Of a stretch of 64,000 nucleotides of DNA, positions 49,391 through 54,987 are shown one piece after another. Below the pieces are notes generated by a model. It worked only from the letters and a program-made list of their open reading frames with translations. It searched no databases and had not been told where the DNA came from. The DNA comes from an uncultured Paracoccaceae bacterium (lineage in GTDB: Bacteria; Pseudomonadota; Alphaproteobacteria; Rhodobacterales; Rhodobacteraceae). The position numbers and the translations under genes were made by a program. Each line of letters opens with the position of its first letter. Position 1 is the stretch's first letter. The stretch is from contig CANKVU010000009.1 of assembly GCA_947487205.1 (NCBI GenBank), forward strand, positions 62,001 to 126,000, read 5' to 3'.

Positions 49391-49421
49391 TGTGATCACA
49401 GCGATTTTCGGTGCGATCACA
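49391..49421 (-). promoter_or_regulatory. paired GATC-centred palindromes upstream of sdhC
   Basis: TGTGATCACA (49391-49400, perfect) and TGCGATCACA (49412-49421) are exactly 21 bp apart, two helical turns. Reading toward sdhC, a GCAAT follows 6 bases after the proximal site. The same arrangement, with the same spacings, stands before sucC. It is a likely operator for a dimeric regulator of TCA-cycle genes. Confidence 0.6.
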
Positions 49422-49423
49422 TA

Positions 49424-50461
49424 TCAGGCGGGCATCAGCGCCCAGTAATCGAGGTCGAGAAGCACGTGCGGGAGGTATTTCCCGTCCTCTCCCTTCAGGC
49501 CCGCATCGGGCCCCTCGCCCTTCGTGGCGACCAGCCTCAGCCGGATCGCGCCCACGTCGCGCGCCCCCGTCTCGGCGCGGTCGAGCACCTCGGACCAGGC
49601 GCGGATCGTGTCGCCCGCGAAGCAGGGCCCCGCATGGGCGCCGCCGTTCAGTCCGGCCAGGAATTGCGCGTTGGCCAGCCCGTCGAAGCTGAGCGCCCGC
49701 GCCATAGAGATCACATGGCCGCCATAGACCAGACGCCGGCCGTCCTCCCGCTGGGTGGCGTCGAAATGCACCCTGGCGGTGTTCTGCCACAACCGGGTGG
49801 CCATCATGTGCTCGGCCTCCTCGACCGTCACGCCGCCGACGTGGTCGATGACCTCGCCCACCGCGTAATCGGCCAGCCGGTGCGGCTCCCCGGCCAGCGC
49901 GTGGTCGTAGGCGGAAAAACTCAACCCCTCGGGCACAACCAGATCCTCGGCCGCGACCGCCGGGGCCAGGTCCGGCACCACCGTCTCGGGCGCCGGCGCG
50001 GCCGCGTCACGCTTGCGGACCATGACCCAGCGCACATAGGACAGCACGTCCTCGCCGCGCTGGTTGCGTCCCGTCGTGCGGACCCAGACGACGCCGGTCT
50101 TGCCGTTGGAATTCTGCTTCAGCCCGATCACCTCGCTCTCGCTCGTGAGCGTGTCGCCGGGCCAGACCGGCCGCAGCCAGCGCCCCTCGGCATAGCCGAG
50201 ATTGGCGCGCGCGTTGAGCGAGATGTCCGGCACCGTCTTACCGAAGACGGTGTGGAACGCGATCAGGTCGTCCAGCGGCGCGGCGCGCAGGCCGCAGATC
50301 CGCGCGAAGTCGTCCGACGAATGGACGGCGTGGCGGGCCGGATAGAGGGCGTGGTACATCGCCCGCTCCCCCGCCCCCAGGGTGCGGGGCACCGCGTGGC
50401 GGATCACCTGCCCCACGCGGTAATCCTCGAAGAAGAACCCGGCGCCGGTCTTGGCCATCAT
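49424..50461 (-). CDS. mch: mesaconyl-CoA hydratase (beta-methylmalyl-CoA dehydratase)
   Basis: 345 residues with two MaoC-type hot-dog domains. Hydrates mesaconyl-C1-CoA to beta-methylmalyl-CoA in the ethylmalonyl-CoA pathway. GAGFFFEDYRVGQVIRHAVPRTLGAGERAMYHALYPARHAVHSSDDFA is characteristic, with FHTVFGKTVPDISLNARANLGYAEG in the first domain and ARVHFDATQREDGRRLVYGGHVISMARAL in the second. The ATG overlaps the DUF1737 stop; a second ATG follows immediately. Lies in the mcl2-nnrU-DUF1737-mch row known from Rhodobacter next to sdh. Confidence 0.94.
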   Translation of the reverse strand: MMAKTGAGFFFEDYRVGQVIRHAVPRTLGAGERAMYHALYPARHAVHSSDDFARICGLRAAPLDDLIAFHTVFGKTVPDISLNARANLGYAEGRWLRPVWPGDTLTSESEVIGLKQNSNGKTGVVWVRTTGRNQRGEDVLSYVRWVMVRKRDAAAPAPETVVPDLAPAVAAEDLVVPEGLSFSAYDHALAGEPHRLADYAVGEVIDHVGGVTVEEAEHMMATRLWQNTARVHFDATQREDGRRLVYGGHVISMARALSFDGLANAQFLAGLNGGAHAGPCFAGDTIRAWSEVLDRAETGARDVGAIRLRLVATKGEGPDAGLKGEDGKYLPHVLLDLDYWALMPA

Positions 50462-50658
50462 TGCTGCCCCAGCTTCATGTCGGGGGCGTAGGGGGCGTGG
50501 TCGCGCTTCACCACCGCCTGCGCGCACCGCATGACGTTGTTCTGCGCGTCGTAGGCGTATGCCGGCGCGCCGTGAAGCTCCCAGCCCGTCGCCAGCGCCG
50601 CGGAGACCTTGTGGCAGAAGGCGGACGTGTCGTCGCCGGTCAGCAATCGGTAGAGCAT
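50458..50658 (-). CDS. DUF1737 small protein
   Basis: 66 residues: YRLLTGDDTSAFCHKVSAALATGWELHGAPAYAYD matches the DUF1737 pattern. The stop overlaps the mch ATG, so translation is coupled. Function unknown. Its fixed place before mch in Rhodobacteraceae suggests a role tied to the pathway or simply a stable operon. Confidence 0.82.
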   Translation of the reverse strand: MLYRLLTGDDTSAFCHKVSAALATGWELHGAPAYAYDAQNNVMRCAQAVVKRDHAPYAPDMKLGQQ

Positions 50659-50662
50659 CGAA

Positions 50663-51214
50663 TCATCCTGCGAAGGGCCACACGCCCAGCCAGGCGTGCA
50701 CGGCGGTGATCACGGCATAGAGGACCAGCGCGATGACGAGGAGCCGGACCGTTCCCTTGCGCGTCCCTTGCGTGAAGGGCGCGGGCCGCGGCGTGGTGGC
50801 ATTCAGCAGCGCCATTTCGGCCAGTGCCCAGACGAGGAACGTCCCGAACATGACGACGGAATGCAGATCGCCGTTGACGAGCAGGTGCAGAGCCGCCCAG
50901 AGCGCGAAACCCGACAGCTGCGGATGCCGGAGCCGGCCGCGCAGCGTCGATTTCGACGATCCGAGCCCGAAGAGCAGCACCGCGACATACATCAGGGCGT
51001 TGTTCACATGCACGCCCCAGGCGGGCGGCGTGTAGACGGGAATGTAGGGCGCGCCGCGATAGCCGATCACGACGAGGATCACGGACAGCGCCAGCACGAC
51101 CGCCAGCACGATCTTGCCGCGTCGCGCGCCCAGCGCGGCGCGGGCCCCCGGAGCCAGCCGGCCGAGCATGTGCGCGCCCACCCAGAGGGCGAGGCCGATG
51201 ACGAGCAGGGTCAT
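50663..51214 (-). CDS. NnrU-family membrane protein
   Basis: 183 residues with five or six membrane helices. The NnrU pattern is seen in LVIGLALWVGAHMLGRLAPG, HVNNALMYVAVLLFGLGSSKSTLRGRLRHPQLSGFALWAALHLLVNGDLHSVVMFGTFLVWALAEM. NnrU is best known from nitric-oxide reduction clusters, but none is visible here. The ATG starts 5 bases after the mcl2 stop. Role in this operon unknown. Confidence 0.85.
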   Translation of the reverse strand: MTLLVIGLALWVGAHMLGRLAPGARAALGARRGKIVLAVVLALSVILVVIGYRGAPYIPVYTPPAWGVHVNNALMYVAVLLFGLGSSKSTLRGRLRHPQLSGFALWAALHLLVNGDLHSVVMFGTFLVWALAEMALLNATTPRPAPFTQGTRKGTVRLLVIALVLYAVITAVHAWLGVWPFAG

Positions 51215-51218
51215 CGCG

Positions 51219-53818: not shown

Positions 53819-53845
53819 GCGGCCGTCCCACCGGGGCGGCCGCTT
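53819..53845 (+). terminator. hairpin after the PRC-barrel gene
   Basis: GCGGCCGTCCC (53819-53829), loop ACC, GGGGCGGCCGC (53833-53843): 11 bp including one G-T pair, then TT. About 50 bases after the stop and 76 bases before mdh. The T-run is minimal. Confidence 0.45.
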
Positions 53846-53920
53846 GACGTTCGCGGGCTTGCCACGGCGAAGGCGAGTCCTTAACCCTCCGCGCGATCGC
53901 ATCAACCGGTGGAGATATCC

Positions 53921-54883
53921 ATGGCCAGACCCAAGATTGCCCTGATCGGTGCGGGCCAGATCGGCGGCACGCTCGCCCATCTGGTCGCGCTGAAGGAACT
54001 GGGGGACGTCGTCCTCTTCGACATCGCCGAGGGCACCCCCCAGGGCAAGGCGCTCGACATCGCCGAATCCGGACCCGCCGAAGGGTTCGACGCGCGCCTG
54101 AAGGGGACGCAGGATTATGCCGACATCGCCGGCGCCGACGTGTGCATCGTCACCGCCGGTGTCCCGCGCAAGCCGGGGATGAGCCGCGACGACCTTCTCG
54201 GCATCAACCTGAAAGTCATGAAGGCGGTGGGCGAAGGCATTCGCGACAACGCCCCCGACGCCTTCGTCATCTGCATCACCAACCCGCTCGACGCGATGGT
54301 CTGGGCGCTGCGGGAATTCTCGGGCCTGCCGCACGAGAAGGTCTGCGGCATGGCCGGCGTGCTCGATTCGGCCCGCTTCCGCCACTTCCTCAGCCTCGAA
54401 TTCGACGTGTCGATGAAGGACGTGACGGCGTTCGTCCTGGGCGGCCACGGCGACACGATGGTCCCGCTGACCCGGTATTCGACAATCGCCGGCATCCCCC
54501 TGCCCGACCTGGTGAAGATGGGCTGGACCACCCAGGAGAAGCTCGACGCCATCGTCCAGCGCACCCGCGACGGCGGCGCCGAGATCGTCGGCCACCTGAA
54601 GAACGGCTCCGCCTTCTACGCCCCGGCCACCAGCGCCATCGAGATGGCCGAGGCCTATCTGAAGGACCAGCGCCGCCTCCTGCCCTGCGCGGCGTGGTGC
54701 GACGGCGAATACGGCCTCAACGGCTTCTACGTGGGCGTGCCCACGATCATCGGCGCCGGCGGGATCGAGAAGGTCGTGAACATCGACCTGACCAAGGACG
54801 AGCAGGACATGTTCAACTCCTCGGTCGAGGCGGTGAAGGGCCTCGTCTCCGCCTGCAAGGGAATCGACGACAGCCTGTCCTGA
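53921..54883 (+). CDS. mdh: malate dehydrogenase
   Basis: 320 residues, lactate/malate dehydrogenase family of the alphaproteobacterial type. NAD-binding [50 protein letters not shown], substrate Arg/Asp region [10 protein letters not shown] and catalytic His in [11 protein letters not shown]. Oxidises malate to oxaloacetate. The ATG (GGAGATATCC before it) starts [10 protein letters not shown]. Own terminator downstream, so it is probably transcribed separately from sucC. Confidence 0.97.
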
Positions 54884-54910
54884 CGGCGCGGGCCGATCCG
54901 GCGCGCATCC

Positions 54911-54941
54911 GGGCGCGTCCCTGCGGGGACGCGCCCTTTTT
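54911..54941 (+). terminator. Rho-independent terminator after mdh
   Basis: GGGCGCGTCC (54911-54920), six-base loop, GGACGCGCCC (54927-54936), then TTTTT. A perfect 10-bp stem with a T-run, 28 bases after the mdh stop. Confidence 0.88.
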
Positions 54942-54956
54942 CGTGGCCTCCCGCAC

Positions 54957-54987
54957 CGCGATCACAGCCCGACGGCGTGTGATCACG
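54957..54987 (+). promoter_or_regulatory. paired GATC-centred palindromes upstream of sucC
   Basis: CGCGATCACA (54957-54966) and TGTGATCACG (54978-54987) are 21 bp apart, and GCAAT follows 6 bases after the proximal one. The same spacing and order are found before sdhC. Lies between the mdh terminator and sucC, 110 bases before its ATG. Confidence 0.6.

Follow-up and report, generated by a model that had tools for sequence, protein, structure and literature searches.

Two names in the literature on Rhodobacter sphaeroides, RSP_0981 and AkgR, are taken here to denote one and the same regulator, the latter name reportedly dating from Imam 2015 in mBio. Under the first name, the protein was placed in the GntR family and predicted in 2015 to control the operons of succinate dehydrogenase (sdh, RSP_0974-6), succinyl-CoA synthetase (RSP_0967-6), and 2-oxoglutarate dehydrogenase (RSP_0965-62), according to the account in PMC4344238; under the second, it is called a transcriptional activator in PMC6365646, where GTGATCAC is given as a motif among its binding sites. 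In this article, paired palindromes of this kind are described before the sdhC and sucC genes of an uncultured Paracoccaceae bacterium, which belongs to a genus different from that of the AkgR / RSP_0981 regulon. The DNA analyzed is a stretch of 64,000 nucleotides (assembly GCA_947487205.1, contig CANKVU010000009.1, positions 62,001 to 126,000), referred to below as the window. The two pairs are very likely operators of a single regulator of the AkgR type with GntR and FCD domains, named P0001 here, which would activate sdh and the suc operon together.

Two further described systems are close to this one. The GntR-like protein PS417_07240 of Pseudomonas simiae, 32% identical to AkgR, has the palindrome GTGATCAC before its own gene and has been proposed to control deoxyribonate catabolism, the site being given in PMC6365646 as one palindrome (-47 to -40) and not as a pair. 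CceR, a regulator of central carbon metabolism in Rhodobacteraceae, is reported to act on the same genes of the tricarboxylic acid (TCA) cycle in R. sphaeroides (PMC11323563), but it is a member of the LacI family, whereas P0001 belongs to the GntR family.

The regulon itself is known, its targets having already been predicted in a relative. Among the papers listed in a literature survey on the bare motif TGTGATCACA, none concerned sdh or suc regulation by title, and a survey on GntR regulators of these operons, which Imam 2015 lay outside, listed nothing closer than PMC4344238. Because this survey contained no account of it, the geometry described below is possibly unpublished; what may be new comprises the strict tandem geometry, the phasing relative to the -35 box, the lone palindrome before the regulator gene, and the inclusion, on occasion, of fumC and lpd among the targets.

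Paired Palindromes before sdhC and sucC

The sequence-only reading of the window had pointed to two GATC-centered palindromes standing 21 base pairs (bp) apart before sdhC and again before sucC, and both the sequences and the coordinates of these sites (Table 1) were confirmed, with a center-to-center distance of exactly 21 bp in each pair. When the whole 4.18 Mb genome was scanned with the degenerate pattern YGYGATCRCR-N11-YGYGATCRCR, as that reading had proposed, matches were obtained at two places, namely upstream of sdhC and upstream of sucC, and the reversed control pattern gave none. Base composition predicts about 0.002 such pairs, and the single-site density of the window predicts 0.17, figures that are to be read with the fact that the pattern was picked after the sites had been seen. 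Single palindromes with at most two mismatches numbered 11 in the window against 12.8 expected, which is no enrichment. It is the pairing, and not the presence of single sites, that is unusual.

The sites at both promoters are of the TGTGATCACA type, with the core altered (GCGATCAC) in two of the four, and the operons behind them comprise the sdh genes, sucCD, and the 2-oxoglutarate dehydrogenase genes, as in the AkgR (RSP_0981) regulon. Two finer details of the initial description hold in this genome and not across the family. The site nearer the gene is the better one here, and in 37 sdhC and 37 sucC upstream regions it was better, equal, or worse in 11, 18, and 8 cases and in 6, 22, and 9 cases, respectively; likewise, the GCAAT found six bases past the near site is not kept in those regions.

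The 21-bp spacing is specific. In a search of 149 family genomes in which 11-41 bp were allowed between GTGATCAC cores, a pair was found in 132 (the present genome, with its altered cores, is not among them), and the 75 spacings listed, which are plus-strand matches from 36 of the 132 matching genomes, amounted to 21 bp in 64 cases and 20 bp in 4, with 7 scattered. The alignment of 74 upstream regions (37 of sdhC and 37 of sucC), selected by this same spacing, gave TTTGTGATCACA-N11-YGTGATCACAAA as the conserved unit.

Conservation in the Family and Beyond

Conservation in relatives, one of the two points on which the sequence-only reading had let its proposal stand or fall, was found to be extensive: of 295 family genomes, this genome counted, 244 carry the strict degenerate pair, with the reversed control giving 0 in the rows of that search. 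Since the pair is kept across the family to this extent, the observation is not a product of chance. Named relatives, including Cereibacter johrii, Ruegeria, and Leisingera, carry it in all 18 cases picked from 80 named loci; in one of them, C. changlensis, the contig coordinates of the matches are identical to those in family genome G091, which helps to place the family.

The genes behind the pair were checked at 65 strict-pair loci, two of them from this genome and 15 from eight genomes chosen for having three matches, so that unrelated places are over-represented in the set. Even so composed, the set contains 32 pairs before sdhC, 27 before sucC, one before sucA, one before fumC, and four elsewhere, and the rarity of the pair at random positions, also named in advance as a point to check, is thus borne out by the 61 of 65 loci that front one of these four genes.

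Among the 51 family genomes without the strict pair, 15 gave a match when up to three mismatches were allowed; in 11 the match stands upstream of sdhC or sucC, and in the other four it does not. The reversed control of this relaxed search matched in one of the 51. In G066, a genome of the same genus that fails the strict pattern, a degenerate pair with 21-bp spacing lies upstream of sdhC, and the pair upstream of sucC is spaced at 20 bp. Among 285 genomes sampled across the class outside the family, 7 match the degenerate pattern, six of them through GC-rich strings of the CGCGATCGCG type; the single convincing match, in a genome from another family of the class (G440, locus L151), is a 21-bp GTGATCAC pair directly before a GntR/FCD gene whose product is 29% identical to P0001. 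This pair suggests that the operator is common to a broader group of FCD regulators.

Several loci carry more than the standard arrangement. Three palindromes in one 21-bp register stand upstream of sucC in two genomes (L008 in G197 and L121 in G191), forming a triple operator. Pairs are also found upstream of fumC (L146, G042) and upstream of lpd (L138, G289), and these may be new, as additions to the regulon that belong to the TCA cycle and are confined to single lineages. A CGTGATCACG pair with 21-bp spacing lies about 165 bp upstream of a gene for a potF-type polyamine-binding protein (L119, G276:C3), where it is either a chance match or an extra target. The third pairs at L012 (inside mgtE), L114, and L116 were set aside, as they look like chance matches.

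The Probable Regulator P0001 and Its Likely Correspondence to RSP_0981

P0001, one of 15 FCD-domain regulators in this genome, is encoded beyond the window (Table 1). It combines an N-terminal GntR winged helix (PF00392, 50.1 bits against a cut-off of 27) with a C-terminal FCD domain (PF07729, 62 bits against a cut-off of 24.3), the composition of the FCD subfamily of the GntR superfamily; no NCBIfam model matched it at the model's own cut-off. Its closest relative of solved structure by sequence is McbR/YncC of Escherichia coli (PDB 4p9f, E-value 1e-20), a protein that is likewise of the GntR type and has a different role.

In C. johrii, the genes follow the order gntR, sdhB-A-D-C, pair, mch, mcl2, mdh, pair, sucC-D-A ... 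lpd, ecm, and the product of this gntR gene is 73% identical to P0001. Because this order fits the RSP_0962-RSP_0981 numbering, P0001 can be matched to RSP_0981 through the C. johrii ortholog; judged by gene order and by that gene, P0001 is very probably the local ortholog of RSP_0981, taken as AkgR. The common motif GTGATCAC, the GntR family, and the targets agree with what is described in R. sphaeroides (PMC6365646, PMC4344238). The two genomes differ in their flanks, as the regulator gene lies here beside lpd and an ecm-like mutase gene beside sdhB, the reverse of C. johrii; the block from sdhB to lpd is therefore inverted between the ecm and gntR flanks of one genome relative to the other.

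The distribution of the regulator follows that of the pair. A strong P0001 ortholog, defined by an E-value of at most 1e-60 and counted by hand, was found in 265 of the 295 family genomes, with 12 having a weaker match and 18 none. Of the 30 genomes without a strong ortholog, 22 lack the pair, as against 29 of the 265 with one (Fisher p 4e-13), and in the wide-spacing search of 149 genomes it is absent from 14 of 18 genomes without such an ortholog as against 3 of 131 with one (p 1e-13; the present genome is among the three). Ortholog and pair occur together in all 18 named relatives picked, and P0001 adjoins the suc/sdh block in several genera.

A further link is provided by the regulator gene itself. 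Among 56 P0001 orthologs, which were the best-scoring or previously fetched loci and not a random sample, an exact single GTGATCAC is located 7-11 bp before an in-frame ATG in 36; three duplicate loci and three loci below 60% identity (L261, L262, and L151) were left out of this set. This occurrence of GTGATCAC in relatives connects the protein with the motif by a route that does not involve sdh or suc. Upstream of the palindrome, a TTGAC-like box is found in 34 of 35 scored orthologs, compared with 5.4 by shuffling, and in 23 it lies 18 bp ahead; a box starting 18 bp before the palindrome would place the palindrome over the expected -10 box.

Predicted Promoters Downstream of the Operators

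Between operator and gene, the upstream regions share conserved elements that are read here as -35 boxes, probable for sdhC and possible for sucC. GTGAC occurs in 45 of 48 sdhC upstream regions, against 5.9 expected by shuffling, and is missing from three; its distance from the operator is 56-60 bp in 39 of the 48, while the distance from operator to start codon ranges over 106-230 bp. In six promoters outside this mode, GTGAC lies at 47 (this genome), 47, 48, 68, 77, and 78 bp, each offset from the main mode by close to an integral number of helical turns, with a second GTGAC having been set aside in this genome (79 bp past the operator) and in G066 (29 bp). A phasing statistic over all sdhC promoters, whose input list also contained secondary GTGAC matches, is uninformative because 35 of the 48 lie at 57-58 bp. 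On the sucC side, TT is found 46-47 bp past the operator in 34 of 45 upstream regions. With these elements as -35 boxes, the operators would be situated about 80-120 bp upstream of the transcription start, a position that suits an activator.

Table 1. Operators, predicted promoter elements, and genes at the sdhC and sucC loci, with the probable regulator gene (positions are those of the window, except for P0001)
Feature	Position	Strand	Description	Basis
Far palindrome, sdhC operator	49412..49421	.	TGCGATCACA (TGTGATCGCA towards sdhC)	sequence and genome pattern scan
Near palindrome, sdhC operator	49391..49400	.	TGTGATCACA; the sole exact TGTGATCACA in the genome	sequence and genome scan
Far palindrome, sucC operator	54957..54966	.	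CGCGATCACA	sequence and genome pattern scan
Near palindrome, sucC operator	54978..54987	.	TGTGATCACG	sequence and genome pattern scan
sdhC	48882..49265	-	first gene of sdhC-D-A-B (45485-49265)	domain and gene naming, relatives
sucC	55097..56290	+	first gene of the succinyl-CoA ligase / 2-oxoglutarate dehydrogenase cluster	domain and gene naming, relatives
Probable sdhC -35 box	49338..49343	-	GTGACA, 47 bp past the operator	GTGAC conservation in relatives
Possible sdhC -10 box	49315..49320	-	ACGTAT, 17 bp spacer, weak consensus match	inferred
Possible sucC -35 box	55034..55039	+	TTGGCA, 46 bp past the operator	TT conserved at that offset
Possible sucC -10 box	55057..55062	+	CACAAG, 17 bp spacer, weak consensus match	inferred
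P0001, GntR/FCD regulator	G000:C9:129092-129769	minus	roughly 3.1 kb beyond the end of the window; convergent with lpd, the last gene of the suc operon	

Proposed Mechanism and Alternative Explanations

The sites, their spacing, their targets, their conservation, the co-occurrence with P0001, and the own-gene site in relatives can all be read from the sequences, and a mechanism may be proposed that accommodates them. Each GTGATCAC palindrome, which has the size of a one-dimer site, would bind one dimer of the AkgR-type protein, and the two sites, two helical turns apart on the same side of the DNA, would position two dimers ahead of the -35 box, leading in this organism to the joint activation of sdhCDAB and the suc operon. 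In relatives, the lone palindrome over the regulator's own -10 box would allow the protein to repress its own gene and limit its own synthesis. The effector might be a carboxylate of the TCA cycle, a guess made from the FCD family. A broader generalization is put forward tentatively, its chances being judged slightly below even: site geometry could act as a switch, in which a lone palindrome over the own -10 box represses and a 21-bp tandem pair at a helically quantized distance from the -35 box activates the genes for the succinate part of the TCA cycle, in a family of hundreds of genera, with single-lineage extensions to lpd or fumC and a third palindrome in two sucC promoters.

Several findings weigh against the assignment of the pairs to P0001 as an activator. 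The sites in this genome are weaker than is usual in the family, and the promoter boxes of sucC are weak. Eight genomes have the pair and no strong P0001 match; five of these are at most 91% complete, while two (G101 and G114) are 100% complete and one (G256) is 93% complete. The co-occurrence of P0001 and the pair may in part reflect shared ancestry, and P0001 paralogs, 35-41% identical, exist in 15 of the 18 named relatives. No exact start site is present at 20 of the 56 orthologs, including that of this genome and that of C. johrii, one of the 20 (L260) having no upstream sequence. An operon with a YgjP-like gene directly upstream was tried as the explanation for the absence of this site and rejected, as no significant correlation was obtained (p 0.18).

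Four other explanations of the pairs have been considered. That P0001 binds them and represses sdh and suc is rather unlikely: many FCD regulators are repressors, and the site over the likely -10 box of the regulator's own gene in relatives is in a repressor position, whereas the pairs before sdhC and sucC lie about 46-58 bp upstream of the likely -35 boxes and do not overlap them, and AkgR is termed a transcriptional activator in PMC6365646. It is quite improbable that another regulator, be it a different one of the 15 FCD proteins or CceR, binds the pair and that P0001 shares only its phylogenetic distribution. The number of FCD regulators in the genome and the P0001 paralogs of the named relatives speak for such a regulator, as does the report that CceR acts in R. 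sphaeroides on both sdh and the 2-oxoglutarate dehydrogenase genes (PMC11323563). On the other side stand the adjacency of P0001 to the suc/sdh block in several genera, its co-occurrence with the pair, the palindrome that 36 of 56 orthologs carry at their own start, and the RSP_0981 correspondence. These tests covered P0001 alone of the 15 FCD proteins, whereas all 15, P0001 included, were covered by a scan of the loci of 2.4-3.4 kb around their genes, in which no site within one mismatch of TGTGATCACA was found.

The letters of the half-sites would also permit a site of the CRP/FNR type, since TGTGA and TCACA agree with the CRP consensus TGTGA-N6-TCACA. This candidate was rejected and is very improbable, as the two halves abut in the four sites and in the aligned relatives, leaving no 6-bp gap; the unit TTTGTGATCACA-N11-YGTGATCACAAA is conserved in the 74 regions picked by this spacing, and GntR/FCD genes carry the same palindrome. 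A chance likeness of two upstream regions, for which the lack of enrichment of comparable single GATC palindromes in the window could be cited, is hardly credible in view of the two genome-wide places, the 244 of 295 family genomes, the rarity outside the family, and the fixed spacing of 21 bp. Comparative evidence supports the proposal of the sequence-only reading that a regulator site couples succinate dehydrogenase with the operon of succinyl-CoA ligase and 2-oxoglutarate dehydrogenase, and P0001 acting as an activator through both pairs is the explanation preferred here.

Under P0001 as the common activator, a precise and testable operator is provided for a regulator otherwise studied, in the literature found, solely in R. 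sphaeroides, and this operator joins the steps from 2-oxoglutarate to fumarate in a family that includes the marine roseobacters. As the operator is conserved through the family, sequence alone suffices to recognize the regulon in many genera. That the regulator gene has one site and the targets have two points to a simple rule by which one GntR protein could both repress and activate.

Neighboring Genes in the Window

Genes of the ethylmalonyl-CoA pathway are located around and between the sdh and suc operons (40053-54883). The set consists of ccr, ecm (of the methylmalonyl-CoA-mutase type, named from its position), mch (mesaconyl-CoA hydratase), and mcl2 (an HpcH/HpaI-type lyase, the name being assigned here). 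A Ser/Gly-rich protein with a PRC-barrel domain (Pfam PF05239) and degenerate GSSESGSS repeats is encoded at 53012-53767. On the minus strand, a gene of the acyl-homoserine-lactone synthase type (Pfam Autoind_synth, 38237-38818) adjoins a gene for a LuxR/TraR-type regulator (38936-39649), which scores below the NCBIfam cut-offs.

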